In this document: in pieces, positions 8,188 to 27,778 of the stretch
Position numbering within the stretch: position 1 is the stretch's first letter
How the letters are laid out: each line of letters begins with the position of its first letter
From: Methanolobus sediminis
GTDB taxonomy: Archaea > Halobacteriota > Methanosarcinia > Methanosarcinales > Methanosarcinaceae
Direction: 5' to 3'
DNA length: 64,000 nt
NCBI RefSeq assembly: GCF_031312595.1
Contig: NZ_CP133592.1
Coordinates: 2,728,001-2,792,000 of the forward strand
The notes under the pieces: model-generated
Database searches by the model: none
What the model saw: the letters and a program-made list of their open reading frames with translations, nothing else
Told to the model about the DNA's origin: nothing
Translations under genes and position numbers: made by a program

Positions 8188-10302
8188 TTAGTAAAAGGCA
8201 TATAGTGTAAATATTAGCAGCAAAATCGTTAATACGGGCCAGTATAGCACTTTTATTATGAGGTTGTTCTCATAGTCAATTATCTTTATCTTTCTTTTTG
8301 ATGCAAACAGGATAGAATCCGCTGCAACAGCCAGGATTGCCAGATACATTGCGAAGTAGAAATATTCCAGATAGATTATGCCACCTGTTGAAAGACTATC
8401 TCTAAGTGATACCTGTGCTACGATAAGAACGAATAACAATGCAGCGCAGTGCCCTAATACACCTGAAGAACTGAAACCGTAGTAACTCGCAGCTCCCTCT
8501 TTTTTTGAGATTAACAACAGATCGGCAAATATAAGAAGTGCCACTACTATCAATGGGCTCATGTACGAGACGAATGGATTTATGAAATCCCTTTTCACAA
8601 CCACATTAAAATAGAGCTCCGGCCTGTTTTGATGATTGTAATCTTCCAGTCCAAAATTAGTGTTGTAGCTGTTGTCCCTATAACTGAAATAGCTCTTCTG
8701 GATATCCCATCCCCCGAGTACAAAATCCTTCTCAAGGCCCGGTTTTAATTCTGGAGAGAGTGTGTCATAGGAATCCAGGTCGGGTACAAGAACAACGTTA
8801 TCATCAAATCCTTTATCCCATAACCGGATCCAGATATTTTCTTTATCAAAAGGATATTTGGAATTATCAAATTGCTGGCGCAGTGTGGTCTCGAAATACC
8901 AACCTATAACTCCCTCCGTTTCATATGCTTTTTCAATGCTTGTTCTAATAGTTGTGGATTCAGATTCCGGGAAAATAACTCCGGGGATTATTCCCTCAGT
9001 ATTATTTTTTTGCCAGATGTAGCCTGTTACAGCCACGTTATTAGAACTTGAAAATTCTATGGACTGAAGAAAGATCCCGGTAGGAACTTTTATTGTATCT
9101 TCGGATGCTGCCGTATTATTGGATACTTTATTCAAAGTTACTTCTAAACCGGCCCTGTCGAAAACTTTCGCATCGTAATTTTCCTCAGTGAGCTTATCAC
9201 TCATATTGAGATACCATATGTTTCCTATACCGGCTAAGCACAGAATAGACAGAATAATTGCAACAGCCCAAAGGCTTCTGGAACTACCTGTTTCTACATG
9301 AAAGATGAGAGCGGAAAGGAAAAACACAAAGGCTATAAAAGCCATGGAAATTTTGATCGATGTGTGTTGCTGGAATATCTTTTCCTCTTGCAAGATCTCC
9401 TCTTCGACAAAGGCAACTCCCATTGTCCAGTTTGTTGAGGGAATATTATTGAAGAATACATGGAATTCCTGGCCTGTAAAATCATTGGAATAAGTGAAAT
9501 TATCCACTCCAATAAGCATATTTTTATGTATAGCCTCTAGAGTTTTGTCTGTCTCTGTTAGATCGGATATATTCTGACCAAGGTATTCCTCAATTGGGTA
9601 TGAAACAATGGTTCCATCCTCTGTGATGATAAAACCGTATCCGGTATTCCATAGGTCAAGTGACCCGACGATATTTCTCACACAATCCAGAGAATAGTCA
9701 CCTGTAATAATTCCGGCAGGAGTTTCAGGTACAGATGCATTGTAAAAAGGAAGGGCATATACAACCAATATTTGCTTACTTGTTGTTCCGAAATGAGGTT
9801 CAACCCACCCAGGGCCTTTATCCATCGGTTGGTGATACCATATGGTTCTGATACCAGTTTTATTATCTGGCTGTGTGTAATCGTAATTCTCCTCGATCTG
9901 TTTCAATTGGAGGCCATTCGGTTCCCTTATGACATAGGGAGCATAAAGGCCTGAATCATTCATCAAATGTTTAACAGAGGGATTATATGCAACAGTAATG
10001 CCATAAAATTCCGGATGCTCCTCCAATGTTTCATTTATCTTTTGCACAACCTGATCTTCTTTTATCTCACCAGAACTCAAATCTTCTGCAATTGATGTGG
10101 TGACCTCCATCATGATAGAGAGGCTTTGATCAATATCATCTGCTGCTTCCACAGCTTGATTTTCTGCTTTGATCGTGGCATGTAGTCCGAGTTCCTCAGA
10201 GGTTTCTTGCTCGCTGATCAGATGTACCAGCAACACAAAACTCACTACACAGAGCACTAAGAGGACTCTAAATATTAACTTCTGGAATTTTTCGGGTTGC
10301 AT
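8188..10302 (-). CDS. Predicted Cache-domain / pentameric ligand-gated ion channel fusion
   Basis: A 704-residue membrane protein. A first TM segment (about 9-28) is followed by an extracellular double-Cache-like sensor (about 30-300, with GIITGDYSLDCVRNIV and GYGFIITEDGTIVSYP), two TM segments (about 308-352), and a second extracellular domain of about 210 residues. That domain has the Cys/Pro-loop hallmark QQFDNSKYPFD and ends in FNVVVKRDFINPF just before four TM segments (about 565-704), the arrangement of pentameric ligand-gated channels. The second of these four helices (GHCAALLFVLIVAQVSLRDSL) would line the pore. It lies 80 bases after a co-directional membrane-protein gene at the tail of the CIS cluster. 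The channel call is from motif and topology only. Confidence 0.65.
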   Translation of the reverse strand: MQPEKFQKLIFRVLLVLCVVSFVLLVHLISEQETSEELGLHATIKAENQAVEAADDIDQSLSIMMEVTTSIAEDLSSGEIKEDQVVQKINETLEEHPEFYGITVAYNPSVKHLMNDSGLYAPYVIREPNGLQLKQIEENYDYTQPDNKTGIRTIWYHQPMDKGPGWVEPHFGTTSKQILVVYALPFYNASVPETPAGIITGDYSLDCVRNIVGSLDLWNTGYGFIITEDGTIVSYPIEEYLGQNISDLTETDKTLEAIHKNMLIGVDNFTYSNDFTGQEFHVFFNNIPSTNWTMGVAFVEEEILQEEKIFQQHTSIKISMAFIAFVFFLSALIFHVETGSSRSLWAVAIILSILCLAGIGNIWYLNMSDKLTEENYDAKVFDRAGLEVTLNKVSNNTAASEDTIKVPTGIFLQSIEFSSSNNVAVTGYIWQKNNTEGIIPGVIFPESESTTIRTSIEKAYETEGVIGWYFETTLRQQFDNSKYPFDKENIWIRLWDKGFDDNVVLVPDLDSYDTLSPELKPGLEKDFVLGGWDIQKSYFSYRDNSYNTNFGLEDYNHQNRPELYFNVVVKRDFINPFVSYMSPLIVVALLIFADLLLISKKEGAASYYGFSSSGVLGHCAALLFVLIVAQVSLRDSLSTGGIIYLEYFYFAMYLAILAVAADSILFASKRKIKIIDYENNLIIKVLYWPVLTILLLIFTLYAFY

Positions 10303-10382: not shown

Positions 10383-11075
10383 TCAGCAAATCAAACTAAA
10401 AGGAAATATATCTCCGGCACAGTTGCAAAAAGTCATTTCAAGACCAAATGGTAAATACCAGATAATGTAGACAAGTGTAAATCCTGTAATATAGTTACCA
10501 ATTATTCCTTTGGCAGCTTCGATTGCAAGTAATTTGTTTGGATACGTTGCCTCTATCCACATTTTAAAATAAATGGGCACTATGTTTACTATAGCCATAA
10601 CAGAACCAAGCATAAATCCCTTCATATAATATCCTGAAGGAAAAACATCAAACAGCAGCCCAAGAACAAAAACAACAGCCCATAAAATACATTGGATCAA
10701 AATAATAAGATATTGAGGAATTACTTTTTTTGGAACATTTTTCCATTTCTTCAATGCAAGAGGAGCCTCGGGATTTCTACACATTTTTTCAACCGAGGTA
10801 TTTTTGTAAATTACACTTCTATAAGCAAAAAATACAATTGAAGCTACAAATCCTCCAAATATTGTCCTATATATCCCTATATGCAAAATAAAACAAAGTA
10901 ATCTAAACACAAATCCTAAGTCAATACTCAGGTCGACATTCACATCATCAACTAAATACTCATAATCACTAAATGCCGGTGTAAAACCAACAATATGCCA
11001 CACATCAGGATTTGTAATTAGAATCAGGAATATACACAAGAATAATAGTGATCTGAGTGATTTAGTTGGAGGCAT
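10383..11075 (-). CDS. Multi-pass membrane protein of unknown function
   Basis: A 230-residue protein with about five or six hydrophobic segments, including an N-terminal one (SLRSLLFLCIFLILI) that may be a signal anchor, and a basic cytoplasmic loop around KKWKNVPKKVIPQ. No recognisable motif. It lies between the membrane-anchored CIS-linked gene (84 bases upstream) and the Cache-channel gene (80 bases downstream) on the same strand, so it may share their transcript. Function unknown. Confidence 0.6.
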   Translation of the reverse strand: MPPTKSLRSLLFLCIFLILITNPDVWHIVGFTPAFSDYEYLVDDVNVDLSIDLGFVFRLLCFILHIGIYRTIFGGFVASIVFFAYRSVIYKNTSVEKMCRNPEAPLALKKWKNVPKKVIPQYLIILIQCILWAVVFVLGLLFDVFPSGYYMKGFMLGSVMAIVNIVPIYFKMWIEATYPNKLLAIEAAKGIIGNYITGFTLVYIIWYLPFGLEMTFCNCAGDIFPFSLIC

Positions 11076-11158: not shown

Positions 11159-12313
11159 TTAAACTGCACAGATATCCGGTTGTTGTGGTTCTGTCACTGT
11201 CTTATTATAGTAGTCTGGCAAGTACCAGCTTTCAATCGTTGTATTTATCTTAAACGATGACTCTTTTTTACAGACAAAAACATGGATCATATCTTTACCT
11301 TCATTGTTATATCCCAATGTGATCCTTCCTTCCACAAGCTCGTCTTTTTCTTTGATATTGGACATATTTATTACGAAATATACCTCTCCATCATCAGATC
11401 GACGTTCGTTGGAATCATATTTCTCAGTGCCATCACTGTCACTCCACATCTCGATCCAAGTCTTATCAGACCTCAAAGTCCACCATGGAGCTCCATCACC
11501 TACATTTTTAATAGATATTATGAATTTCTGTGGATCTTCAGATGTAGGCTCAACTGTTATGTCCAGATCCGGTTTTTTCTTTTCATCTGTGACATCAAGG
11601 TTTATTGGCATAGCATCTGCAAAGAATTTCAGATCAATAAAATCAAAAAAATCTAACTTTGTATTGACCAGGTAAAAATTTACTTCTCTTTTTCCAGGGC
11701 TAAACTGGAAATCCGGAGTGAGTAATGTAATTTGAACAGTTTCAGATTTGTTCCCATCTAATTTTGTGCTAGGTTCGTTTCCATCTGATTTATCAAAGAG
11801 TATCCATTGATCTTCAGACTGGAGTTCCCAATTCGGATTTACAAATGGCATCCAATCCCATTTTTTATCGATAGTAACATCTATAGTGACCTTATCATTT
11901 AATCCTACAGTAGTAATATTTGTGTCATACTTTGCTACCGGAGCACTACCAATTAAAATTGCAGCTAAAATTGTAATTATTGCACTGATAATTATAATTC
12001 CATAAACAAATCCCTTTAATGTTGCAAACTTTTCCTTCAAAGCTTCATTTTCTCTCAACAAAAACTTTTTCTCAATTTGATCTTTATCAATAAAGGTACT
12101 GAATGTTTTCTCTTCAAATCCATCCTTTTCAATGATATACTTGAGAGTCTGTCCGATATAATCCTCATCAGACTGAAATTCATAATTTCCATGTTCGTCA
12201 GTGAAAAAAAGAGCTCCTATTTCTTTGTCCCCAACCTTAAGCCTTATCTTTGCAAGCGCTATAGGCTCATTATTCTTTGAATTAAGAATTGTCCCAGATA
12301 TTTTCACATCCAT
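11159..12313 (-). CDS. CIS-linked membrane-anchored protein with carboxypeptidase-regulatory-like domain
   Basis: The 384-residue product has an N-terminal beta-sandwich domain of the carboxypeptidase-regulatory type (about 1-88, ISGTILNSKNNEPIALAKIR), a short charged segment, one strong TM helix (about 103-124, VYGIIIISAIITILAAILIG) and a C-terminal region of about 250 residues rich in beta strands and Trp. Predicted topology is inside N-terminus, outside C-terminus. Its ATG overlaps the stop of the upstream fibre-like gene in a TGATG, so translation is coupled. This suggests a membrane partner that ties the CIS particle to the envelope. No named homologue recognised. Confidence 0.7.
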   Translation of the reverse strand: MDVKISGTILNSKNNEPIALAKIRLKVGDKEIGALFFTDEHGNYEFQSDEDYIGQTLKYIIEKDGFEEKTFSTFIDKDQIEKKFLLRENEALKEKFATLKGFVYGIIIISAIITILAAILIGSAPVAKYDTNITTVGLNDKVTIDVTIDKKWDWMPFVNPNWELQSEDQWILFDKSDGNEPSTKLDGNKSETVQITLLTPDFQFSPGKREVNFYLVNTKLDFFDFIDLKFFADAMPINLDVTDEKKKPDLDITVEPTSEDPQKFIISIKNVGDGAPWWTLRSDKTWIEMWSDSDGTEKYDSNERRSDDGEVYFVINMSNIKEKDELVEGRITLGYNNEGKDMIHVFVCKKESSFKINTTIESWYLPDYYNKTVTEPQQPDICAV

Positions 12314-13527
12314 CACTCCAGAACTTCATAATACCTGAACTCCACTTCCACTTTTTTATTTGAAGCGTTTTTAACAACCAGTACATAAGAAAATTTGTTT
12401 TTGTCGCCTCCCTGAATCTGTACAAACTTCTGTTGAGGAGGATTTTGAGCAGATGAAGATATCATTTCGGTGTCTGGTTGGTTGATACTTTCCTGAGAAG
12501 GAACTGTTCCTGAACGGCCTTTTTTTGAGATCAGTTTGACTGTTTTTTGTTTTAAGCTGGTTATTTGCTGTGCAAATCCGGTTGATATTTTCTTTAAAAA
12601 ATCGATATTTTTATCAAAGTGAACCGAACTGACATCACCTTTTTCCACCTGCCATCTCCATTCAATAATTGAATTCGGAGTGATAGGAATTACACTTGTC
12701 ACAAAAAAACGGTGTTTTGTACCGGGTTCAGTAAAATCCACTTTTGCTTCGGATTTCGGTCCAATTTCGGCAGTGCCGGAAGATTGTATGGTACTCATCC
12801 TGGAAATCGGTACACAGCCTTGCTCTATCTGGTCAGTACCGACCATGTTCTTGCTAAGTTTTCCGGTTAATGTTCCTGAAATATTCAGGTTTCCTGTCAG
12901 TATGGTGTTCTCAGAGATTATCTCCAATCCCGGGCTCACACCGTCCACACTTTTTATTCGGAGGAATTTATCAGGGTCATCTTTTGTTGATAAAGCAAAA
13001 TCAATACTATTAACCTCTATATCCCCACTGATACTTTTTACATTCCTGCGTTCTTCAAGATCGATATAGCTTAGAGTATCTTTTTCCCGGTCAAATATCA
13101 ATTTTGCCAGAATAAGCTTCATTGACAATTCATCAGGTTCATTTGTATCATATTCGATGACACAATCTTCGCTAGTACGGGTATACGCTTTTTCTCCTTC
13201 CCCTTCTCTAAAATCGGTCTGTTCTTCTTTATACGATACTGTGAGATAAAGGGACGTGGCTGTCGATTGGGATAGGTCGATCTCTCTTAATTTGTCAAGT
13301 ACGATCTGTCTTCCCAGACCATCAATGGCCATACCCATACTGATCGTTACATTTTTTGTACCAATCTTTTCAACATTAAGACCCCGTGCAATACCCCATG
13401 TATGTAAATTCCTGTTATGGGACCTGAGCGCATCGACATGATACTGCTGTTCATCCTTGAAATCATCGGCATTTAATAACTGCCCTGTATAATAATTCAA
13501 CCTTTTATGAGATGTTTTATCGGTCAT
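12313..13527 (-). CDS. CIS fibre-like / distal baseplate protein
   Basis: A 404-residue protein. The first 60 residues (NYYTGQLLNADDFKDEQQYH, then HNRNLHTWGIARGLNV) match a conserved N-terminal module seen in extracellular and membrane-linked CIS loci, placed after the baseplate genes. The middle (about 205-240, LTGNLNISGTLTGKL) is a fibre-like beta repeat, and the last 80 residues include a Gln/Ser-rich linker and a C-terminal beta domain. Position after the gpI-like gene agrees with a tail-fibre or receptor-contacting part (Afp13 position). It is translationally coupled to the membrane-anchored protein downstream. Confidence 0.65.
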   Translation of the reverse strand: MTDKTSHKRLNYYTGQLLNADDFKDEQQYHVDALRSHNRNLHTWGIARGLNVEKIGTKNVTISMGMAIDGLGRQIVLDKLREIDLSQSTATSLYLTVSYKEEQTDFREGEGEKAYTRTSEDCVIEYDTNEPDELSMKLILAKLIFDREKDTLSYIDLEERRNVKSISGDIEVNSIDFALSTKDDPDKFLRIKSVDGVSPGLEIISENTILTGNLNISGTLTGKLSKNMVGTDQIEQGCVPISRMSTIQSSGTAEIGPKSEAKVDFTEPGTKHRFFVTSVIPITPNSIIEWRWQVEKGDVSSVHFDKNIDFLKKISTGFAQQITSLKQKTVKLISKKGRSGTVPSQESINQPDTEMISSSAQNPPQQKFVQIQGGDKNKFSYVLVVKNASNKKVEVEFRYYEVLE

Positions 13528-13545
13528 GGAATTCCTCCTCCATTA

Positions 13546-14571
13546 TTATAGCAATGTATTTTCCCCAATATTCGAATTGACACCTAAAGTTATTCTGGGC
13601 TGCTTAATATTCAACCAGTAATCAGTGTGTATCGGTTTTTCTGAGTCTATAATTCTTTCAATTGCCTTCTTTTTGTCCTTCCATTTTTTAATATCAGAAG
13701 CAAGAACATTTTTTCCGTTGTATATTATGACTCCCTCATTCTCCATTTTAACATTCAGTTCACAGCTTTTGCCACCACTTAACACTAATTCGGCTTTTCC
13801 CTTTTCTGCATCAAGCTTTATTTGTGCTGAATTATCATCTCTGCTTATGCTGATGGTTTTACCATCATCAGATTTTTGGAGATCTGCACCTTCTGCCCAG
13901 TCAATACCAAAATCATCTTTGAGATAACTTAACAGTCCCTCACTTTCAACCCCAGGGACATTGTCCCATCTGAACATATACATCACATCTACTTCGACAA
14001 TAAAAAAATGTGAAGGAAATCCACCCACCCTGGAGTTTTTCCCTATGCGGGAAGTTATTCCTACCTGGAACTGTTCCGCTTCTCCAATGATGTTCACGCG
14101 TTTACCCACGTATATACTCAGGTATTCCTCAAGACCTCTTTTTGTTCCACGCATCCTGTAGATAGGAATGATCCTGGCGATAATTTCCCGCTTTTTCTCA
14201 AGTTCCCAGTCATCTTTCAGAACAAGAGCTACCCAGCCAGCCAGCCAGCGTAGAAACTCATCTATACCATCATCCTGTAGGAAATGCTTTTTAAAAGTTA
14301 TTTTTTCATTATCTTTTAAAGGAGGCAAGAACGACATTTCTGCATCATCGAACAGGAAGGAAAATCTGGGATGAAAAATATCAGGAATAATATCAAGTGT
14401 TTCTGAAATCCCTTTTTTTTCATTTATTTCCTCATTTTCAATTCCGCTTATTATAGTTTCGAATATCTTGAGATAACGCTCTAATGATAAACTTCCCCCA
14501 TCCTGCGACCCTTCGCTAAATATTGCCGGGAGAAAACGTAAGTAGCTGGTTTCTGGTCTCACCTGATTCAT
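13546..14571 (-). CDS. Phage tail protein I-like baseplate wedge protein
   Basis: A 341-residue protein. The N-terminal YLRFLPAIFSE, then FLRWLAGWVALVL, EKKREIIARIIPIYRMRGTKRGLEEYL are signature segments of phage P2 gpI-type tail proteins that connect baseplate J proteins to fibres. The C-terminal half is longer than in P2 gpI and includes an unrecognised beta-rich insert (about 200-300). The start ATG overlaps the end of the upstream baseplate J gene by four bases, typical for a coupled structural operon. Confidence 0.8.
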   Translation of the reverse strand: MNQVRPETSYLRFLPAIFSEGSQDGGSLSLERYLKIFETIISGIENEEINEKKGISETLDIIPDIFHPRFSFLFDDAEMSFLPPLKDNEKITFKKHFLQDDGIDEFLRWLAGWVALVLKDDWELEKKREIIARIIPIYRMRGTKRGLEEYLSIYVGKRVNIIGEAEQFQVGITSRIGKNSRVGGFPSHFFIVEVDVMYMFRWDNVPGVESEGLLSYLKDDFGIDWAEGADLQKSDDGKTISISRDDNSAQIKLDAEKGKAELVLSGGKSCELNVKMENEGVIIYNGKNVLASDIKKWKDKKKAIERIIDSEKPIHTDYWLNIKQPRITLGVNSNIGENTLL

Positions 14572-15527
14572 TTCTCCTCCTTCCCAACTTCCACATTCAA
14601 TGAATCAACTTTTATGAGTCCGTTTATCGGTTTGATTTTTAATTTCTTGTTACCATCAAACACTATTGATTCAACTTGTTTGACCCCTTCCGTTTCTTCA
14701 ACAACCTGAGCAATCTCATATATGGAAAGGGATCTTCTGTATGGCCATCCTGTTCTTTCATCCCCTCCAACAAAAGGATCAAGATGCTGTAAGATCCTGT
14801 TCTTAGTATCAGCTTCTATTTTTTCTGCTATTGCATATTGATGACATACAATTTCCAGGTCTATACTAACATCAGAATAAACAGGTTGTTTGACCTTGAT
14901 CTTTGTTCCAATAAGTGTCCTTGGATTCAGGTAATCCATCACATACCCGGTAAGTTCTTTATACCTGCTCTGCTTTTCAGATTCAGCAAGTTCCTCATAT
15001 TGCTTCCATTCACCTGGTATCAGAATTATCTCAACTTTACTTTCATCCAAAGCTTTTTCAACAATAACTCTTCTGACCTCTACCCCGAACATATCAGTAG
15101 CTTCAGCGGCAAGCTGACAAAAATCATCTTCTGTAATTGCCCTGTAGCGTGAATTGAGAAATAGTAAAGCTTCCCTTTTTATATCCGGAATGGGTTTTTC
15201 ATTTCCTTCTTCAATTTCCTTTAAAAATTCAAGGACATTTCTGTGGCACTTGTCTGAGTGAGGATCTTTTAGCAACTTTTCTATTTCATCAATGCCTGAA
15301 GCACCTGCTACAAGTCGTAAAAAATTGACATAGGATTCATTAGGTACTCTATTCATCCTGTAAAGTGTTGCTTCTGCTATCCAGGAAAGCATTTCAAGTA
15401 TCGTTATACCAGGATCTGATGGATTATGGTTTGTCCATCTATCAGTATATTTCGGGATGGATGCAACCATCTCCTCAGAGATCTCCTCATAAGTCTTCGT
15501 ATCAAGATTGGGTAGCTGGATTACCAT
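14568..15527 (-). CDS. Baseplate J/gp47-like protein, short (Afp12-like)
   Basis: A 319-residue protein. The opening LPNLDTKTYEEISEEMVASIPKYTDRWTNHNPSDPGITILEML is the conserved start of CIS baseplate wedge proteins (NPSDPGI motif). Residues about 120-250 form a baseplate J core (REALLFLNSRYRAITEDDFCQLA, EVEIILIPG-like strands), ending with GWPYRRSLSIYEIAQVVEETEGVKQV. It would form the second wedge component with the larger J protein encoded just upstream. Confidence 0.85.
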   Translation of the reverse strand: MVIQLPNLDTKTYEEISEEMVASIPKYTDRWTNHNPSDPGITILEMLSWIAEATLYRMNRVPNESYVNFLRLVAGASGIDEIEKLLKDPHSDKCHRNVLEFLKEIEEGNEKPIPDIKREALLFLNSRYRAITEDDFCQLAAEATDMFGVEVRRVIVEKALDESKVEIILIPGEWKQYEELAESEKQSRYKELTGYVMDYLNPRTLIGTKIKVKQPVYSDVSIDLEIVCHQYAIAEKIEADTKNRILQHLDPFVGGDERTGWPYRRSLSIYEIAQVVEETEGVKQVESIVFDGNKKLKIKPINGLIKVDSLNVEVGKEEK

Positions 15528-15530
15528 ATT

Positions 15531-18500
15531 TTATTCCTCAATTTCCACACTGATAAGTCCGGCACAGGGCAAGGAATCAGGTTCTATCAACAAATGTTCC
15601 ACACCGGCTATCTCTTCTTTTTCTAGACCCGACAATCCTTCAGTTAACTTAATTTCACTGACATAATCCACGCCTTCAATATCCTCAATTACGGCAGCCA
15701 CCTGTGAGGTGGATATGTTCTGTCCAAAATTCCACCCCTTCCCCGTAGGACCACCTTTCAAGGGATGGAAAAATATTTTAAGCGTTTTTTCAACCCTTTT
15801 CAAAACATCAACACTTTCCGTAAGGGATATTGGTCTGACCTTCACATATGCATTTATTTGTGTATAATCAGGACCTATGGTTTTTATTTTGTGAAGAATG
15901 GGGAAAAAAGCCCGATCCTTTAGATACATTTCAACAGATCTTAAAAGTCCAGAATCCGGAAGAGGTGTATGCCCTTCATATTTTGGAACGATAATGACGG
16001 TTATTGTATCGTTTTTTAATACACACTTTGATCTTGCTACATACTGTGAAGCCTCATGTGCAAGCCATTCAAAATCTTCATTGGTGACCGCACGGTCCCT
16101 GTTCTTAATGATATGAGGGAATCTGTCAATTACACTTTCAATATCCTCCATATCCATGCCGCCTGATGATGGAACATGATTGGTTACCGTATCAATTTTC
16201 GGAATGGTTTTCTTTAGCGAAGTAATAGTCTCTGAGGACACATTGCCTCTTGAACCGCCTCCGGAAACATAGTGCCTTGCAATAATATTGTTCTTACCTG
16301 TATGGGGTACCATGCCCCTGTTCCCATCACCAAAAATTATCTTACCGTTTGCCCGATCCAGAACATAATGCCTGCTTAAGGGACCGGATAATGTGAAGTT
16401 GTTTACTTCCACCCATGAGACCCATACTTCTTTTATTTCCCCATATTCCTCTACCACCCTCAAACCATCTAAACCTACTTCAGACTCTATGACCTTTAAT
16501 TCACCTTTAGAAGGAATATTTGATTCTTTTACCTCAACAAGCTGACCTTCAAGCACTGGCCTGTTAGAAAAATTAAATGTCAGATCAGGTTCACCATTTC
16601 CAGAACCAAGTATTTCATTTCTTGAAGTTGTATTGTTCAAAGCCCAAACCGTATTTGGGAAAATACCATTTAATACAGAGCAGGAAAGCCACTTTCCATC
16701 TTTGCTCTCCACCCTGATCCAGTACAGTTCCTTTCCGAACTGTGATGTGGGTTTAATGTCTGAAGGAGCGGAAAAAGATACGATTCCGGCTGTTCTGAAA
16801 GAATCAGATCCATCTTCCACACTGAATTCTTTCCATGAGATGCCATTGTAATATTTCCATACAAGACCGGTCGCTTCGTCATTATCGTTAAAATTATCCT
16901 GATAATCGGATTGTTTGATTCTTACTGGCTCTTCACCGTAGAGCTTATCCTTAACTGCGCAAAAAAGAGTTACTGGCAGTCCTGCAATATCCTCTTCAAA
17001 ACCAAGGTAAAAAACTGGTAATTTTTCCTGACATGTTTCATATATCTTCCCCGGCTCTTCAGGAGCCAGGTCTCTGTATTGAAAATTATTGAATGACCTG
17101 AGCTTTCCAATCCCTACCCCCTCGTAGCTATATGAAATATTAATAGACTGTATGAACGGAGGATTAAAAACAGTTGACTTATCCTGAGAGAATAGATCAG
17201 TTTCATCAAGACTATCCCTTATTTTGTGTGTTGATCTTTTCAATGTAGTGTATAGTGATCCAAAACCATGATCTTCTTCAGATTTGACTCTTCCATCAGT
17301 CTCATATAACTTTTCAGATATGACCCTCATCCTGATCCACTTGTTCAACTGCCCGTTAATTTCGATAGGTGGTATGGAAGGACAGGTTTCAATGAATACC
17401 TGACCGGATCTTGTAAAAGCTTCAGTATTGTCAATAACAGTTAATGGCTCCCAGCCATTTCCATTCCAGTATTCCCATTGGAGTACCAAATTTTTATTTT
17501 CATTCTTTGCTTCATCATATTCAAGTTCAACATCGAATGTTATTGTAGCTCCTTTTTTTGAAAATACCTCTTCTGATCCAATGTACAATGTATCCCTTTT
17601 TTTAGGTACTTCTCCAAAAGGATAAAATCCTTTTTTCATATCAAGCGGGACCACATTGAAAAATGCTGCATCAGGTGTTATATTTTCAACTGTCAGATCC
17701 ATGGATATATTCGATATCGCAGGCAGATCTGTTCCATCAACTATTTTAGTATCATGCGGTTTGACATGTAACCAGAAGCTTTCTATTCCATCTATTGATG
17801 AGCTTTCAAATTTTTGAATACTTTGAATGTCACGAGTTTTATCATTAAAAATGATATCAAGTTTTTTTGCATCCTGACTAGATGTGATTTCAGGATTTTC
17901 AATCAGATTATTGTTGCCATCATACCACAGGTCAAAATACTCTTTAAAAAGATTCTTCCCTTCTAAGTGGAACTTCAATTCAGATGGCAGGTTTTGCATG
18001 TGCAGCAGGATGTCATCACCCATATAGAAAACATGATCAAGAGGTTTTTCATCAGCATCTCCTCCAAATATACAGATCTTTTCTTTTTCACCTGATACAA
18101 CTTTTGAGTGATCAGTGTATTTATCCTCCCAGCTATTCAAAGAAAAAACAGCATTCAATTTTGCAGGAACCACGCTCAATCCCTGTGTTGTTTCAAATAC
18201 CACTTCACTGTCTTCCGATGATACTACCTGAGTACCACGGGGAACAAAACTACCTGAAGAGCCCTCTGCAAGGTAGAATGTTAACGGAACTTTTGAAGGC
18301 TTTGCAGACAGGAGGTTCACTCCCATAAAATCAAAAAATGCAAGACGATGCTTGTCTGGTATTTTGTTAAACTGGGTTATGAGATTTTCAGCCATATCTG
18401 AAAAAAGCCTGAGTATTACCAGACCGGGGTCATCCGGATCAAAATAACCTCTTTTTTGTGGAATAGCTAATTCCGGACAGTAATGTCTTGCAAGCCTTAA

Positions 18501-18560
18501 TGACTGCTCATAAATATCCTCCGAAGTCCTGGTGTCAAGAACAGGAGTTTTAGCAGCCAT
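15531..18560 (-). CDS. Baseplate J/gp47-like protein, long (Afp11-like)
   Basis: A 1009-residue main baseplate wedge protein. The N-terminal part (YCPELAIPQKRGYFDPDDPG) carries the same NPxDPG-type motif as the shorter J protein. Several beta-sandwich inserts follow (WEYWNGNGWEPL and WKYYNGISWKEF are a repeated motif, so two related inserts are present), then the J core (LDRANGKIIFGDGNRGMVPHTG, GGGSRGNVSSETI, DRAVTNEDFEWLAHEAS) and a C-terminal GWNFGQNISTSQVAAVIEDIEGVDYV. Its ATG directly abuts the stop of the gp25-like gene. Length is typical of Afp11-class proteins. Confidence 0.88.
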   Translation of the reverse strand: MAAKTPVLDTRTSEDIYEQSLRLARHYCPELAIPQKRGYFDPDDPGLVILRLFSDMAENLITQFNKIPDKHRLAFFDFMGVNLLSAKPSKVPLTFYLAEGSSGSFVPRGTQVVSSEDSEVVFETTQGLSVVPAKLNAVFSLNSWEDKYTDHSKVVSGEKEKICIFGGDADEKPLDHVFYMGDDILLHMQNLPSELKFHLEGKNLFKEYFDLWYDGNNNLIENPEITSSQDAKKLDIIFNDKTRDIQSIQKFESSSIDGIESFWLHVKPHDTKIVDGTDLPAISNISMDLTVENITPDAAFFNVVPLDMKKGFYPFGEVPKKRDTLYIGSEEVFSKKGATITFDVELEYDEAKNENKNLVLQWEYWNGNGWEPLTVIDNTEAFTRSGQVFIETCPSIPPIEINGQLNKWIRMRVISEKLYETDGRVKSEEDHGFGSLYTTLKRSTHKIRDSLDETDLFSQDKSTVFNPPFIQSINISYSYEGVGIGKLRSFNNFQYRDLAPEEPGKIYETCQEKLPVFYLGFEEDIAGLPVTLFCAVKDKLYGEEPVRIKQSDYQDNFNDNDEATGLVWKYYNGISWKEFSVEDGSDSFRTAGIVSFSAPSDIKPTSQFGKELYWIRVESKDGKWLSCSVLNGIFPNTVWALNNTTSRNEILGSGNGEPDLTFNFSNRPVLEGQLVEVKESNIPSKGELKVIESEVGLDGLRVVEEYGEIKEVWVSWVEVNNFTLSGPLSRHYVLDRANGKIIFGDGNRGMVPHTGKNNIIARHYVSGGGSRGNVSSETITSLKKTIPKIDTVTNHVPSSGGMDMEDIESVIDRFPHIIKNRDRAVTNEDFEWLAHEASQYVARSKCVLKNDTITVIIVPKYEGHTPLPDSGLLRSVEMYLKDRAFFPILHKIKTIGPDYTQINAYVKVRPISLTESVDVLKRVEKTLKIFFHPLKGGPTGKGWNFGQNISTSQVAAVIEDIEGVDYVSEIKLTEGLSGLEKEEIAGVEHLLIEPDSLPCAGLISVEIEE

Positions 18561-18950
18561 TTATTCACTCCCAACATAAAATGGATACACAAGATTGTAC
18601 CTTGTGTTCGATGAAATAATCCTGTACTCAATGCTGATATTCAACCTGTTAAGTTCCTGCTCATCATTATTTGCATCAACCTTGATGAGTTCTATTCTGG
18701 GTTCCCATTTTTTCAAAGCTTCTTCAACGTGAAATATTGCAAAGGAAGCAGTGGATGTATCATTTACAGAGAATGCCAGGTCATGTATCCTGCATCCAAA
18801 ATCAGGTCTCATGACTCTTTCACCTATTGATGTACCAAGGATCAATAGTATCGATTCCCTGATAGAATCCTCATACTTAGACCAGGTAATTTTTCCGTTT
18901 TCAGTTTTCAATGGAAAACTCACGCCAACACCAAGAAAATCCGCATCCAT
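18561..18950 (-). CDS. GPW/gp25-family baseplate protein (Afp9-like)
   Basis: About 129 residues from the ATG at 18950, chosen over an in-frame GTG at 18959 because a GGGTGA ribosome site sits 5 bases before it. The sequence FLGVGVSFPLKTENGKITWSKYEDSIRESILLILGTSIGERVMRPDFG is the gp25 core (GERVMRPDFGC motif). In contractile tails this protein starts sheath assembly at the baseplate. Downstream of the PAAR-like tip gene, overlapping its end. Confidence 0.92.
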   Translation of the reverse strand: MDADFLGVGVSFPLKTENGKITWSKYEDSIRESILLILGTSIGERVMRPDFGCRIHDLAFSVNDTSTASFAIFHVEEALKKWEPRIELIKVDANNDEQELNRLNISIEYRIISSNTRYNLVYPFYVGSE

Positions 18951-18955
18951 TTTCT

Positions 18956-19351
18956 TCACCCTATAAACACGTTACCTGTTGCAACCACTGTTCCTATCGG
19001 CATGTCGGAAGGATCGTTACATGTTATTGCCGTATCCCCATTCCTTGCTGCCGGTTTCCCATTTATTCTCACAGTTGCACTTCCCATGTTTATTGTCGCT
19101 TTATTTGAGGGAGATTTCTGAAAAGGCCCTCCCTGTGGAACGTGATAAGGAGTGTTCGTAGCCGTCGAATCAACTGTTGCAGCAGGCATTCCATCAATCT
19201 TTACATTCCCGCTGAGATTGCCATCTATTATGCCTGTAAACGCATGAGGAACTGGAACAGGAATTGGAGGACCAGGAGGTGCCTGTATCAAAACGATATG
19301 GATATCTGTTGCAATGACCTGATCTCCCTGTTTAGCCGCCGTCATTCCCAT
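18956..19351 (-). CDS. PAAR-like spike-tip protein (Afp10-like)
   Basis: About 131 residues from the ATG at 19351, which has a GGGAG ribosome site; an upstream in-frame TTG at 19381 is less likely. It has the PAAR layout: AAKQGDQVIATDIHIV, then PVPHAFTGIIDGN, GNVKIDGMPAATVDS, VRINGKPAARNGDTAITC and VVATGNVFIG. PAAR proteins form a small cone that sharpens the spike and often carry cargo. No extra effector domain is present here. Confidence 0.9.
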   Translation of the reverse strand: MGMTAAKQGDQVIATDIHIVLIQAPPGPPIPVPVPHAFTGIIDGNLSGNVKIDGMPAATVDSTATNTPYHVPQGGPFQKSPSNKATINMGSATVRINGKPAARNGDTAITCNDPSDMPIGTVVATGNVFIG

Positions 19352-19377
19352 AATTAAACTCCCGATCAATGATCTGA

Positions 19378-20013
19378 TCAATTGAGATCTATTGTAGCTC
19401 CTTTAACAGTCACTTTACCTGACGCTTTCAGGTTCATATCCGATGATGCTTCGATCTTTGTGGCTGCTGATGCTTTAATCTCAATATTTAGTGCATCGAT
19501 AGCAATTTTCCCATTCGGTGCAGACATCTCAATATCCTTGTTTGACACTATGGATATTTTATTATCTTTTGTATCGATCGTGATCATATTTTTTTCAGTT
19601 TTATCTACGATCTCTATTTTTTCGTTGCCCTCTGTGTCATCTATTTTTATCACATGACCACTACGGGACTTCATCATCCTGATATTGTTCTTACCATTAC
19701 TATTCGTTTCAGGAGGGATATCCTTCCCATTCCACAGCGATCCGATGATATATGGCACATTTATATTTCCCTGCTCAAAAACAACAAGAACTTCATCATC
19801 GATTTCCGGCAGGATAAAAATTCCTCTCTCTTTTCCAGCCATAAGTGATGCGACTCTCGCCCAGTTAGACTCATCATCATCGCTAAGCCACGGAAATTTT
19901 ACCCTGATCCGTCCAAGTCCTTCAGGATCCTTGTTGTTTGTCACAATACCTATGACAACACCATAAATCCTTGAATCTGTGCTCTGATCATCAACCAGAT
20001 CCAGTAAACTCAT
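19378..20013 (-). CDS. Baseplate assembly protein V / VgrG C-terminal-like spike protein
   Basis: A 211-residue protein with the gpV/VgrG OB-fold start (GVVIGIVTNNKDPEGLGRIRVKFPWLSDDDESNWARVASLMAG) and the beta-helix needle that follows (repeats such as KNMITIDTKDNKISIVSNKD and KASAATKIEASSDMNLKASG). The ATG overlaps the stop of the preceding gpD-like gene by four bases. In most Afp/PVC systems these two parts are fused in one Afp8/VgrG-like protein; here they are separate and translationally coupled. Confidence 0.88.
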   Translation of the reverse strand: MSLLDLVDDQSTDSRIYGVVIGIVTNNKDPEGLGRIRVKFPWLSDDDESNWARVASLMAGKERGIFILPEIDDEVLVVFEQGNINVPYIIGSLWNGKDIPPETNSNGKNNIRMMKSRSGHVIKIDDTEGNEKIEIVDKTEKNMITIDTKDNKISIVSNKDIEMSAPNGKIAIDALNIEIKASAATKIEASSDMNLKASGKVTVKGATIDLN

Positions 20014-21062
20014 ATCCCGCCCCTCCTGACCTTAAACGATGTTTTGTATCCACTATAATCAATTACATGAGATGTTGAAGTGACATAGTAAGTTCCGCTG
20101 AACCTGCCAATTCCTTTGATCTCAATGGTATTACCAGCTCTCAATTTTGGAATACCTGTACATTTTCCATCACCTGTTACGGACCCTACAAGATGTTTAT
20201 TGTATCTTGCAACTGCAAGTTTTTCTGCATCAAAATTATCAACAGGATGCTCATCTACAATATATGATGAGAATTTACCAAATGCAGACTCAGTCATGTT
20301 TGTTCCGTTATTTTTGACATTCATCGTTGACATGGACCTTTCACTTTTTGATGTTGCAGATACCTGTTTTTTCTTAATGTAATCCCATCCCTGCACCACA
20401 ATTTCATCACCTTCATATCTTGCACTCAAGTCTGCAGAAAACTCTTCCAGGTCAACTCTGTATTCAAGGACCAGGGATGCCGGATCACTCTCTTTTGGTG
20501 ATCGGAAATGTAATGTCCTGTCATCAACAAAAAGCTCGTACCTGATGCGTTTTGCTCGTTGCAATATGAACTCAAGGTCGTTTTGGTTATTTTGATAAAT
20601 ATGCGGATGAACAGTTCCTGTATCTTCCACCTTTGCGCTAAGCCCCCATTCACCGGCAATCGAAGATGCAATGTCACTATCCTTTACATCAACAAATGTG
20701 CGCCTTTTTGTTCCAAAACGAAGCCTGTGCAACCTGTCATAACCTCTGATCTCAATTGTTGAGAAACTTTCACTAAAGGTTGGCTTAAGAGAGGTGACCT
20801 CACCTGCAATCATCAGGACCAGATCATCCATACCCATGTATAATTTGATCTCACTTCCCAGATGAAAATCTTTAAGGTCAACATGTTGCCAGCCCCCTTT
20901 TTCGAAATCGGATGTTGCCAGCTTAAGAATAAACATAGATGCTGTGTTGAGTTCTTCTTCGAATATCACACTTTCAACAGATGCCATAGATTTTGCTGAA
21001 AGCTCGTTGCCATCTACTTTGATCTTAAATATCGGTACTGTGGAAACTATATTTTCTGGCAA
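20010..21062 (-). CDS. Late-control gene D-like protein (VgrG N-terminal part, gpD)
   Basis: A 350-residue protein of the gpD/gp27 hub class. It has VPIFKIKVDGNELS, then IRGYDRLHRLRFGTKRRTFVDVKDSDIASSIAGEWGL, NNQNDLEFILQRAKRIRYELFVDDRTLHFR and a C-terminal GNTIEIKGIGRFSGTYYVTSTSHVID, all standard for phage gpD and CIS hub proteins. Start is TTG with a GGAG ribosome site seven bases upstream. It forms the trimeric hub on which the gpV needle sits. Confidence 0.88.
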   Translation of the reverse strand: MPENIVSTVPIFKIKVDGNELSAKSMASVESVIFEEELNTASMFILKLATSDFEKGGWQHVDLKDFHLGSEIKLYMGMDDLVLMIAGEVTSLKPTFSESFSTIEIRGYDRLHRLRFGTKRRTFVDVKDSDIASSIAGEWGLSAKVEDTGTVHPHIYQNNQNDLEFILQRAKRIRYELFVDDRTLHFRSPKESDPASLVLEYRVDLEEFSADLSARYEGDEIVVQGWDYIKKKQVSATSKSERSMSTMNVKNNGTNMTESAFGKFSSYIVDEHPVDNFDAEKLAVARYNKHLVGSVTGDGKCTGIPKLRAGNTIEIKGIGRFSGTYYVTSTSHVIDYSGYKTSFKVRRGGI

Positions 21063-21081
21063 TTTAAGCTCCTGATAAGGT

Positions 21082-21753
21082 TTAGTCTGGAATTATTATT
21101 ATTTTGCCAATATCATCAGGACCCGGGAAATTCAGTGGATCGTCAATATCATTCAACTCAGCGATCTTACGCCACAATAGTGGATCCTTAAGTTCTTCTG
21201 CTGCTATGATGTCAAGCCTTTCTCCCTGTTTGACCTGTCTGACCTTTCTGCATGCTTCAACACCTTTGAGCTTTAACGCATCCTGTGCATTCACAACCGA
21301 CCTCATTACAACGGTCAACTTCGCACGAACAGGAATTCCAGTTGACATGAACATTGTGAAATTTTGAGAAACTGATTCCACAACTCCTTTAAAATTAAAT
21401 TTACCCCAGCTGAACAAGCATACAGGCGGCTTTTTTGTTTCTTTTCCCTCAGCAGTTGGAACAGCAAGTTCCATGATTCTTTTTGTTCCGGCAACTTTTC
21501 TGACCCTACCGGAAATTGAAACTTCATTATCTTCTCTTACATCAGCACGGATCTCATATGTATCAAAAAATAAATTGAGTGTCAAAGTGCCAAAAGTTGT
21601 TTTTGTGAACTCAGGCATCATACCCCTGTCACCCACCCATGTTGCATTTATGGTGCTTGTATAATCAGTCGGGTTGAACATTACCTCTATGGTCTTGTCC
21701 TTAACAACACCCTTACCCTGATCATCCAGGATGTATATTTTGGCTTTTTCCAT
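21082..21753 (-). CDS. LysM-containing CIS tube/baseplate adaptor protein (Afp7-like)
   Basis: A 223-residue protein with the CIS tube-associated N-terminal domain (IEVMFNPTDYTSTINATWVG, then GTLTLNLFFDT) and a C-terminal LysM domain (about 172-222, VKQGERLDIIAAEELKDPLLWRKIAELN). Afp7/gp53-type proteins link tube, hub and baseplate. Start ATG overlaps the stop of the upstream 453-residue gene by one base. Confidence 0.88.
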   Translation of the reverse strand: MEKAKIYILDDQGKGVVKDKTIEVMFNPTDYTSTINATWVGDRGMMPEFTKTTFGTLTLNLFFDTYEIRADVREDNEVSISGRVRKVAGTKRIMELAVPTAEGKETKKPPVCLFSWGKFNFKGVVESVSQNFTMFMSTGIPVRAKLTVVMRSVVNAQDALKLKGVEACRKVRQVKQGERLDIIAAEELKDPLLWRKIAELNDIDDPLNFPGPDDIGKIIIIPD

Positions 21754-23114
21754 TACCTGAGACCTCTCCGTTCTTTTTCAATTGAAAGTTTAGATTCAAG
21801 AAGTTTGTAGACCCTATCGGCAATGATAGTGATATTATCAATATTCTCAACACTGTTTAGTGACTTGACATTTTTCTCAACAACAGCTGCCTTTTCTGAA
21901 TCTGTTTTGTCTATTCCGGTTGTGATGGCATCAGATTTTACCTTATTGTCAGGCTCTTCGTCTGAATTTTGAACAGCAGATTTTCTTAGAACCAGATCAG
22001 AAGGTATTCTGGAAATGTTACTTGATGAAAGATCAAATGGCACATTAATATCTGTTTGCGCATTCCTTGCATGATGTAAAGAGAGATCACCCTGATTGGA
22101 TAACAGGTTGGGACTAGTTGGAACTTCACCATCCTCAGCCTCCATATCCGCTATCCTCAATCTTGCAATATGTTTATTAGAAACAGACCTGTTTGCAATA
22201 TTCTTTTTTTCAGTCATCAAATACCGTTCTTCTGTTCGCCTGCTAAAATTCTCATATTTTTCATACACAAGTTCATTTCGTTTTTGAACACGTGCCACTA
22301 AGGTATCAATTTTTAAAACAGCCTCATCCGCATGAGTGGAGGAATGCAAAATGATGTCTTTGGCTTTTGTATTTTCATCCACTTTCACTCCTGCAAGCAC
22401 CTGCTTGGTGTATTCATCAAAGGAAGAAATATCAGGTGTCTTTAGATGCTGTAATTTTAACAAATCACCAGTATTTTCGAGCTGTATTTTGTCTGATTGT
22501 GTTTTGAGAAAGATACTTTTCTTGCTCAGGTTGTTTGAAAGAATTAATGGATTTTTCATTTTTTCTCTTTGAGATAGTGTCTTTTCAGATAGTGTTCTCA
22601 CGAGTTCCATTGTTTCCTGGGTCTTTACTGATACAGGCTCAAAAATAAGATTCGGAGTTTGCCGGTCAACTAGCTTCAAGTATCTCATCAAGCGTGGAGT
22701 TACAGGGTGCTTTTTATCTTCCCCTGAACCTGTTTGTATATTCATCTGCTGTTCTAACACATTTTTTCCAGATGATAATTGATTTTTAAACTCAGACTCA
22801 TGGGTAACTACATTTTGTGCTGGCCAACTTGTTAAATGCAAATTCAGATATTGAATTATGCTGGTACTTAATATTTTTTTAATAATATCTTGATTAATGT
22901 TTGTTAATTTGATTGTACCATCGACTGTTTCCAGTAACCTTAAAAATATTAACGACGGAAAATTACCTTGTTTTGTGCCAATAGAATATCGCTGGATAAT
23001 CTGGTTAAAAAGATCAGGTTCATTAACTTTCATTGACGAAATTGTACTTACAGGCAACACTGTTGGTAGCTTCTTTTGCAATATACTGCAATCTGTATGT
23101 AATTGTTCATTCAT
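21753..23114 (-). CDS. CIS-operon protein of unknown function; possible tape-measure-like protein
   Basis: A 453-residue soluble protein between the second tube gene and the LysM adaptor gene, the slot held by Afp6 in Afp-type clusters. Residues about 35-100 look like a small helical domain (IIQRYSIGTKQGNFPSLIFLRLLET). The rest is charged, low in aromatic residues and helical or disordered, ending in a predicted helix (VENIDNITIIADRVYKLLESK). No recognised motif. It could act as tape measure or chaperone, since no other tape-measure candidate lies in the operon. Confidence 0.6.
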   Translation of the reverse strand: MNEQLHTDCSILQKKLPTVLPVSTISSMKVNEPDLFNQIIQRYSIGTKQGNFPSLIFLRLLETVDGTIKLTNINQDIIKKILSTSIIQYLNLHLTSWPAQNVVTHESEFKNQLSSGKNVLEQQMNIQTGSGEDKKHPVTPRLMRYLKLVDRQTPNLIFEPVSVKTQETMELVRTLSEKTLSQREKMKNPLILSNNLSKKSIFLKTQSDKIQLENTGDLLKLQHLKTPDISSFDEYTKQVLAGVKVDENTKAKDIILHSSTHADEAVLKIDTLVARVQKRNELVYEKYENFSRRTEERYLMTEKKNIANRSVSNKHIARLRIADMEAEDGEVPTSPNLLSNQGDLSLHHARNAQTDINVPFDLSSSNISRIPSDLVLRKSAVQNSDEEPDNKVKSDAITTGIDKTDSEKAAVVEKNVKSLNSVENIDNITIIADRVYKLLESKLSIEKERRGLR

Positions 23115-23143
23115 GCTACCACATCAATTAAGTGGAAAATTAG

Positions 23144-23599
23144 TTATGGAATTCTTTTGAGTCCGTGATGAGCCAGGGTCAGAGTCTCAGTTGCAATGGT
23201 ACCGGTTATAGCATTGAGTGATGGGCCATTCAGTTTTATCGGATAAGCATCAACAAAGCTCCATGTTACCAGAGGAGAACCATCCTGATCACAAAGAAAG
23301 ATCAAACCGTCTTTCCTTTTGACCTTTCCATTTATGGCATCATCATACCATCTCCAGATCAGATCATGATCAGTGATCCCGCGCTTTAGAGTTATGTTGG
23401 AATATTTTGTACCTTTAGGGAGCTTATATTCAATGCCATTAGCTCCCCCTTCTCTTATAGTTTCAACTTCCGTTTCGATATCCAGACCGGAGACCTCAGT
23501 AAATCCAGCTGCAGTAAGTCCTTCGATCTCTACAATAAAATTATAGGCACTATAAGGATCGACTCGCTTTTTTCCAGATAATAAATTTGATTTGGGCAA
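23144..23599 (-). CDS. CIS tail tube protein, second copy (Afp5/Afp1-like)
   Basis: A 151-residue T4 gp19-type inner tube protein: DPYSAYNFIVEIEGLTAAGFTEVSGLDIETEVETIREGG, then KYSNITLKRGITDHDLIWRWYDDAINGK and LNAITGTIATETLTLAHHGLKRI. Start is TTG with a strong GGAGG ribosome site. It differs from the first tube protein at 24170-24607 and may form the ring that meets the baseplate. Confidence 0.92.
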   Translation of the reverse strand: MPKSNLLSGKKRVDPYSAYNFIVEIEGLTAAGFTEVSGLDIETEVETIREGGANGIEYKLPKGTKYSNITLKRGITDHDLIWRWYDDAINGKVKRKDGLIFLCDQDGSPLVTWSFVDAYPIKLNGPSLNAITGTIATETLTLAHHGLKRIP

Positions 23600-23625
23600 A
23601 GTTTCCTCCAGGTCTAATTTTGTCC

Positions 23626-23811
23626 TTACATATCCAGAATACTCTTTTCATTAGAATTCGAATTGAGATTCTTGTTTATCTTACTGACCTCTTTACACCA
23701 GAGTTGCCTGTCCCTATGTTCCATGTTCATGATGGTTTCATGGTCCCAGTGGAAATAGTAAGCCAGGAATGCTACCTCCTCAAGCAATTGATTGAGGGGG
23801 TAGCTTAGCAT
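23626..23811 (-). CDS. Small CIS-operon protein (DUF6760-like)
   Basis: A 61-residue protein between the two tube genes. EEVAFLAYYFHWDHETIMNMEHRDRQLWCKEVSKIN matches the short conserved protein that accompanies tube genes in many extracellular CIS loci (DUF6760). Its start overlaps the end of the preceding gene by seven bases, so it is part of the coupled operon. Role unknown; the position suggests tail-assembly help. Confidence 0.75.
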   Translation of the reverse strand: MLSYPLNQLLEEVAFLAYYFHWDHETIMNMEHRDRQLWCKEVSKINKNLNSNSNEKSILDM

Positions 23812-24173
23812 TTCCCCTGATCATTCACCTCGACGTCAAACATGTGTTCACATTTGGGACAAACTGTTTTTATCACGTCTGATCCGTTTTCGTTGATCCG
23901 CTGGTAAAGTTCCTGCAGATAGGCCATATCGGCTATGAACAAATTTTCAATATTCCGTGTATTGATAGAATGCAGAGTGCCCAGCTTTGTGATTACACGG
24001 GATAGCAAGATTACACTCAAGTAAGCCGGATTTGACTGTACTCTTGGATCCTTTAAAGGTAAGATCTCATCTGCTGCAGTTGCAAGACGCATGATCCCAT
24101 CCTTGTGCAGGTTGCCATCTTCATCAACATACCCTTGTGGAAGTGTGAACTCAAATTCTGTCTGAAACGTCAT
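23805..24173 (-). CDS. CIS tail-assembly protein with a C-terminal zinc-ribbon half
   Basis: A 122-residue protein with the conserved opening FTLPQGYVDEDGNLHKDGIMRLATAADEILPLKDPRVQSNPAYL, a helix that carries RVITKLG, and a C-terminal CPKCEHMFDVEV (one CxxC pair). Equivalent small proteins lie between tube genes in other CIS loci and are compared with T4 gp51-type or tail-assembly chaperones. The start overlaps the stop of the first tube gene (four bases). Confidence 0.75.
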   Translation of the reverse strand: MTFQTEFEFTLPQGYVDEDGNLHKDGIMRLATAADEILPLKDPRVQSNPAYLSVILLSRVITKLGTLHSINTRNIENLFIADMAYLQELYQRINENGSDVIKTVCPKCEHMFDVEVNDQGKC

Positions 24174-24607
24174 TGTACCCTGTCCATTCCCTCATGAGCG
24201 ATCTCGATCGTTTCAATAGCTACATCATTTCCCATGGCGTTTAGGTCAGGAGCATTATACTTAACAGGCCATGCTTCCCTGAACTCCCAGCGAGCTGCCG
24301 GATTTCCTCCTTCATCCAGAAGAAGAACAGCAATATTTTTTCTCGCCTCGGCAGTCTTTCCCTGAATTACCTGCTTTCGCCATTCAAATAGCTCGGTAGA
24401 ATCTGTAATTCCCCATTTAAGGGTCAGATTTCCGTATTTAGTTAGCCCCGGAAGCTTTCTGACAGTTGTATCTTCATTTCCTTCCCTGTATTCGATAGAA
24501 TCGGTGGCGATATCCGGGATCGTAACTTCACTGAAACCTGCCTGAATAATTCCATCTATTTCCAGCAGGAACCTGGAATTTCTATAAGGGTCTTTTCTTT
24601 CTGGCAT
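24170..24607 (-). CDS. CIS tail tube protein, first copy (Afp1-like)
   Basis: A 145-residue gp19-type tube protein: DPYRNSRFLLEIDGIIQAGFSEVTIPDIATDSIEYREG, KYGNLTLKWGITDSTELFEWRKQVIQG, and LNAMGNDVAIETIEIAHEGMDRV. It lies just after the sheath gene, the usual order for the main stacking tube subunit. Confidence 0.92.
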   Translation of the reverse strand: MPERKDPYRNSRFLLEIDGIIQAGFSEVTIPDIATDSIEYREGNEDTTVRKLPGLTKYGNLTLKWGITDSTELFEWRKQVIQGKTAEARKNIAVLLLDEGGNPAARWEFREAWPVKYNAPDLNAMGNDVAIETIEIAHEGMDRVQ

Positions 24608-24623
24608 ATTTATTCACTTCCAA

Positions 24624-26165: not shown

Positions 26166-26200
26166 TCACTAAAACCTCCTTTGATTATATGATGAATATC

Positions 26201-26220
26201 ATTCCTGAAATTTCAGGAAT
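26201..26220 (-). promoter_or_regulatory. Perfect 20-bp palindrome between the 204-residue gene and the sheath gene
   Basis: The sequence attcctgaaatttcaggaat is a perfect palindrome that includes the stop codon of the gene upstream and ends about 35 bases before the sheath start codon. In RNA it would form a hairpin. It may be a processing or protection site that adjusts sheath mRNA, or a partial terminator; no U-tract follows it. Confidence 0.5.
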
Positions 26221-26827: not shown

Positions 26828-26831
26828 CTTT

Positions 26832-27428: not shown

Positions 27429-27460
27429 CAATTAATCCTCTTAAATGTGTAATTTTAATT

Positions 27461-27778
27461 TTAATTCGATAGGTTTTCATATGCTGTGAGAATAACTTTA
27501 TAATCAGGCATGTTTCCACAAGACTTTAGCCTATCAACTTCCAGCAAAAATCTTCCAGTCATTTCCTGAGTCATATTATTTTGTTTTGCAAAGCGTCCAG
27601 CCAGAACTTTCAATTCTTTTTTTGAAGAAAATTTTTTAGCGATATTATCATCAAAAAAGTTGAATATCATACCACATTTTTCGTGGCCGATTGCTCTAGT
27701 AGAAGGACTTAGTGAAGAAGGTACATAGTCTTTAAATGTTGAATTTTTTACTAATTCTCCACATTCACATAAAATCAT
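27461..27778 (-). CDS. First CIS-operon gene; small cysteine-containing protein of unknown function
   Basis: A 105-residue soluble protein with an N-terminal CECG and a further C in HEKCGMIFNFFDD that could form a small metal site, then a helical half (KELKVLAGRFAKQNNMTQEMTGRFLLEVDRL). A GGTGA ribosome site precedes the ATG. It is the leading gene of the minus-strand run, after the predicted promoter and leader hairpin. It may be an assembly or regulatory factor; family not recognised. Confidence 0.6.
   Translation of the reverse strand: MILCECGELVKNSTFKDYVPSSLSPSTRAIGHEKCGMIFNFFDDNIAKKFSSKKELKVLAGRFAKQNNMTQEMTGRFLLEVDRLKSCGNMPDYKVILTAYENLSN

Follow-up and report, generated by a model that had tools for sequence, protein, structure and literature searches.

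What might a sensor fused to a neurotransmitter-receptor-like channel be doing directly after the genes of a contractile injection system (CIS) in an archaeon? The pentameric ligand-gated ion channels (pLGICs) are the family of fast nerve signalling, and little is known of what the prokaryotic members do physiologically. A recurrent genomic link between such a channel and an injection machine gives the channel a concrete, testable role, and it may show how archaeal injection systems know when to fire. The gene that raises the question lies on the minus strand of the window, by which we mean the whole 64,000-nucleotide stretch of Methanolobus sediminis DNA that was analysed. Its product is, on sequence evidence, a real Cache-pLGIC of a kind known since 2004, and the conserved tie to the CIS is the part worth following.

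Domain architecture and the Cache sensor

The open reading frame at 8188–10302 is uninterrupted, starts with an ATG preceded by AAAGGAAG, and encodes 704 amino acids. An earlier note on this DNA had read the protein as a double Cache domain followed by a pair of transmembrane (TM) helices, another extracellular domain, and a final set of four TM helices, and the profiles and hydropathy agree with this order. The loop motif QQFDNSKYPFD that it singled out is present (Y483, P484, F485, and D486), and the CIS cluster that it placed ahead of the gene was found on the same strand at 11159–27778. The features are as follows.

8188–10302, minus strand: whole gene, Cache sensor fused to a pLGIC core, 704 amino acids (ORF, Pfam, PDB profile search, and hhalign)
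10222–10278, minus strand: TM1, residues 9–27, N-terminus inside (hydropathy)
9385–10197, minus strand: double Cache, extracellular, residues ~36–306, with the conserved aromatic pair W155 and Y156 (profile matches and alignment)
9295–9351, minus strand: TM2, residues 318–336 (hydropathy)
9217–9273, minus strand: TM3, residues 344–362; the TM2–TM3 hairpin joins the sensor to the channel module (hydropathy)
8590–9198, minus strand: pLGIC-like extracellular (ligand-binding) domain, residues ~369–571, with beta9 Trp532 and pre-M1 Lys570-Arg571 (PDB profile search and hhalign)
8845–8856, minus strand: Pro-loop signature Y483-P484-F485-D486 (alignment; signature definition from PMC4795631)
8191–8589, minus strand: channel helices M1–M4, residues 572–704, with M1 Pro583 (profile match and hydropathy)
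10383–11075, minus strand: five-helix membrane protein between the CIS and the channel gene (a homologue with 71% identity occupies the same place in genome G110)
11159–12316, minus strand: CIS-linked protein with a carboxypeptidase-regulatory-like domain and one TM helix (Pfam and neighbourhood comparison)
12313–27778, minus strand: contractile injection system, comprising a Tail_P2_I protein, baseplate J, gp25, PAAR, spike (Phage_base_V), hub, CIS_tube, two tail-tube genes, sheath, Pvc16_N, and unnamed CIS genes (Pfam and neighbourhood)

Hydropathy placed TM helices near residues 9–27, 318–336, 344–362, 581–599, 615–633, 642–666, and 681–699, that is, a single N-terminal helix, a hairpin separating the Cache from the second extracellular domain, and four helices in the C-terminal part, with positive charge on the predicted inner loops. 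The four helices that follow the ligand-binding domain (LBD) are indicated by both the hydropathy peaks and the loop charges and also appeared in low-confidence structural models.

The N-terminal region matched two Pfam sensor families, dCache_1 (PF02743; E 1.4e-11, at 44.8 bits just under the cutoff of 45) and MCP-like_PDC_1 (PF22673; E 4.9e-10, above the cutoff), and a PDB search matched solved Cache and dCache sensor domains down to E 1.5e-8. The profile match extends over the double Cache, as in members of the dCache_1 sensor domains. With the PctA/PctB-type dCache sensors the domain shares this profile match, the aromatic pair W155-Y156, and D202, whereas Thr153 stands at the position of the Arg of the amino-acid motif (PctB alignment), the residue at the binding Asp (D202) varies between D, E, V, and S across the relatives, and no known ligand motif is conserved. 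Because the Arg position is occupied by Thr153 and the Asp varies among the relatives, the ligand is not predicted by the known amino-acid or amine motifs; assignment to the dCache_1AA (amino-acid) or dCache_1AM (amine) subfamily was rejected on these non-conserved contact residues.

Identity of the C-terminal half

The Pfam channel models (Neur_chan) matched neither the 704-residue protein nor any of the 16 members of its family, and a single-sequence PDB search with the channel half returned nothing relevant. We report two alignments, a profile of the 16 channel halves of the window family including homologues (A1) and an alignment of five other archaeal channels found independently with Pfam Neur_chan_LBD (A2). 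When A1 was searched against all PDB sequences with hmmsearch, the best match had an E of 0.0044, and all 60 matches listed were GLIC, the proton-gated channel of Gloeobacter, or GLIC chimeras; in the alignments given with these matches, the register is kept from the Pro-loop as far as M3. Comparison of A1 with A2 by hhalign gave a probability of 96 and an E of 1.8e-9, and the extracellular domain alone, with the helices removed, gave an E of 4.1e-7; reversed and shuffled control targets gave 0.06–0.6, and the four helices alone were not significant in the same comparison. When the A2 profile was searched against the whole genome, the gene at 8188–10302 was the only match (E 2.6e-4), and the same profile also picked out the orthologue in another genome. 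The profile search proposed in the earlier note thus succeeded with family-profile and profile–profile comparisons and failed with the Pfam channel models.

Seven residues are the most conserved in the Pro-loop superfamily, among them those of an [F/Y]PxD Pro-loop with an invariant Pro (PMC4795631), and six of the seven are present in the window protein (Y483, P484, D486, W532, R571, and P583). Across the family, the Pro-loop Pro (P484) and the beta9 Trp (W532) occur in 16/16 members, the pre-M1 Arg (R571), preceded by an invariant Lys, in 14/16, and the M1 Pro (P583) in 13/16. The residue that is absent is the M2–M3 loop Pro, which aligns with Ser638 and is found in six of the 16 members; this Pro occurs in 88% of the superfamily and is therefore not a required feature, since 12% of accepted members also lack it (PMC4795631). 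In one homologue (L015, genome G074), the Pro-loop Asp is replaced by Asn and the pre-M1 Arg by Gly within the same protein, a joint loss that is expected because the two residues form a paired salt bridge in known channels.

Structure prediction was less informative. AlphaFold2, run on two sequences (those of the window and of Syntrophus) for both the channel half and the full length, gave models with a pLDDT of 39, too poor to count for or against the pLGIC reading; with such a model, many pLGICs were among the best Foldseek matches (E of at least 0.048), and in VIA-align pLGICs were frequent at non-significant scores, with helical bundles ranked higher. Taken on its profile matches and signature residues, the Cache and pLGIC identity put forward in the earlier note is supported, and membership of the 704-residue protein in the Pro-loop receptors (pLGICs) is well supported at the sequence level. 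It is very improbable that the C-terminal half is another beta-sandwich and four-helix membrane protein that resembles a pLGIC by chance, as the empty Neur_chan and single-sequence searches might suggest, given profile evidence in both directions with controls and the signature residues that are present.

Homologues and the conserved CIS neighbourhood

Homologues of the Cache-pLGIC protein were found in 15 of the 112 genomes of the family and in one Syntrophus MAG, and viral contigs contained no relatives. The copies in Methanosarcina-type genomes (L013–L015) are 50–52% identical to the window protein over the channel half, and all belong to the same family. Fusions of MCP-N and Cache domains to an LBD-4TM core were described in Methanosarcina, Cytophaga, and Microbulbifer by Tasneem et al. 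(2004; PMC549065), who suggested a chemotaxis-receptor role for them. The Cache-pLGIC architecture is not new but has been known from Methanosarcina since 2004, and L013–L015 are very likely the Methanosarcina proteins described there.

Several other copies are of interest in their own right. A full-length homologue, 33% identical, comes from a Syntrophus MAG (L028:6882–9065), where it shares its contig with bacterial housekeeping genes, suggesting on sequence grounds that transfer may have occurred between a syntrophic bacterium and methanogens. In L010 (G008:C41), the channel homologue forms part of an open frame of 1276 amino acids with an enlarged N-terminal region, which apparently holds an extra Cache-like sequence. 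Broken or fragmented copies (L116:127–2366, L122:4161–6039, and several G090 contigs) suggest frequent decay of the gene. Archaeal pLGICs in which other N-terminal domains replace the Cache, reminiscent of DeCLIC, were seen at L029–L032, and the stretches read around these contained no homologues of the window CIS genes.

In the window, the channel gene lies directly after a full CIS on the same strand, with the gene of the five-helix protein between them. This five-helix protein is possibly a further CIS membrane part. A search of the window's own genome for eCIS_core cargo gave no match, but the control likewise matched nowhere, so the empty result does not establish absence. The channel follows the CIS on the same strand and in the same order in the window and in G110, G002, G388, and G389, which represent four genera and two families. 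The whole block recurs in G110, where the CIS proteins are 47–93%, the five-helix protein 71%, and the channel 51% identical to those of the window. A 209-residue protein with an HELGH motif, possibly metallopeptidase-like, is encoded there between the five-helix protein and the channel (L043:5667–6293). In G002 the order is CIS, an eCIS_core protein, and then the channel, and in G388 and G389, from the second family, it is CIS, eCIS_core genes, and then the channel; the G389 copy is frameshifted, which counts against the model that we favour below. G106 has its CIS at one contig end and its channel at another, in matching orientation, which is consistent with linkage across a contig break. 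G105 has a CIS of the same lineage with an IS66 transposase in the slot and no channel found, which also counts against that model. Elsewhere, a channel remnant lies near an eCIS_core gene in G373.

Among the seven genomes with the window CIS lineage, CIS and channel are thus adjacent on five contigs, consistent with adjacency across a contig break in one, and without a channel in one. Across the 238 genomes of the class, a channel was present in 6/7 of those with the close CIS lineage and in 13/231 of the others (Fisher 8e-7), a value that overstates the association because the genomes are related. Many relatives have the channel without a CIS nearby, so the channel can do without one, a further point against that model; no CIS lies within ~7 kb of the Methanosarcina-type copies, except that in G097 the channel adjoins eCIS_core genes, ~12 kb from a sheath and on the opposite strand. 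The CIS neighbourhood, a side remark in the earlier note, is conserved and is the less expected part, compared with the fusion itself. In the literature searched, which covered few subscription journals, no report linked an injection system with a ligand-gated channel, and the CIS-linked setting of the Cache-pLGIC gene seems to be the new part.

The two components do not share one history. By its CIS core, the window falls together with G110 and G106, at 81% identity to G110, whereas a tree uniting the channels of the window, G110, and G106 was rejected (AU p 2e-4 for the whole protein and 4e-6 for the channel part). The same grouping is compatible with the Cache part (p 0.15). The channel part leans towards three copies without a CIS nearby, two of them in the window's own genus (support 93/93). 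Because the histories of the CIS core and the channel differ, the link is more than a block handed down intact. One reading is that the channel was recombined or replaced at the CIS slot, and another is that fast evolution produced the conflict between the trees; under either, the pairing of CIS and channel was kept while its parts changed.

Possible working and comparison with known systems

The closest precedent for a role with the CIS is a membrane protein of the Streptomyces coelicolor system: CisA, encoded downstream of the baseplate genes, has an outside solute-binding-like domain, is a predicted pentamer, is required for firing, and has been proposed as a sensor (PMC12237407). Starting from what was observed here, namely the order of domains, the homology, and a gene neighbourhood that is conserved, we give about even credence to the window protein being a Pro-loop (Cys-loop) pLGIC subunit with an outside double-Cache sensor, the conserved companion of one archaeal CIS lineage and a membrane sensor for it. 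By homology, five subunits would form the pore. An outside small molecule would bind the Cache, the channel's own extracellular domain, or both, and the signal may run via the TM2–TM3 hairpin and the Pro-loop to M2, so that the pore opens; the coupling of an outside ligand to membrane current that the earlier note envisaged would take this form. In the weakest step, the ion flux, or the membrane-bound channel itself, might inform or dock the CIS in a CisA-like manner. The bolder proposal, in which a neurotransmitter-receptor-type channel acts as receptor or trigger for an archaeal CIS and turns an outside chemical signal into firing via ion flux or docking, is rather unlikely at present.

The channel may instead be a sensory device on its own, for chemosensing or ion homeostasis, roles that Tasneem et al. 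put forward for prokaryotic relatives, with the CIS adjacency due to island co-transfer or a permissive insertion site. We regard this as possible, if somewhat doubtful: most Methanosarcina-type copies and several same-genus relatives have no CIS nearby, the Syntrophus MAG copy has none in the 15 kb read, and the 3' end of the CIS clusters is variable (eCIS_core genes, IS66, and IS110), but the same slot and strand recur in four genera and two families whose CIS proteins are mostly 60–80% identical, and a single frozen island does not explain the linkage because the CIS and channel trees conflict. An improbable alternative is a sensor without a conducting pore, in which the pLGIC-derived helices oligomerise and hold the CIS at the membrane in a CisA-like way, with ion flow lost or of no importance. 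The missing M2–M3 proline, an M2 register and pre-M2 charge for which no match with the GLIC pattern could be made, the requirement for the membrane protein CisA in firing, and the conserved six-helix putative anchor of haloarchaeal CIS with a T6SS mode (PMC11566945) would fit it, whereas the protein retains the gating-interface pair D486–R571, the Pro-loop, and the beta9 Trp, as would be expected of a working channel.

For the favoured reading, a CIS-associated sensory channel, CisA offers an analogy of position and design only: the two share the place after baseplate genes, an outside sensor-like domain, and a predicted pentamer, whereas CisA spans the membrane with a single helix and has not been described as a channel, and no homology is claimed. 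The authors of the haloarchaeal study state that methanogen CIS have not been explored (PMC11566945), and ANME genomes also carry CIS clusters, with no channel mentioned alongside them in the part of that report consulted (PMC9012536). GLIC, the closest solved relative by profile, shares the Pro-loop, beta9 Trp, pre-M1 Arg, and M1 Pro, but lacks both the Cache and the TM hairpin ahead of the LBD, and its M2–M3 Pro is absent from the window protein. The Methanosarcina ART-LGIC has the same order of parts, an N-terminal Cache sensor and then the LBD and four TM helices, although a CIS is not mentioned in the portion of the article consulted (PMC549065). DeCLIC of Desulfofustis is also a pLGIC with an additional extracellular N-terminal domain (PMC9897478), and the word Cache does not occur in the papers about it; in the window protein, this additional domain is a Cache, and two TM helices stand between it and the LBD.
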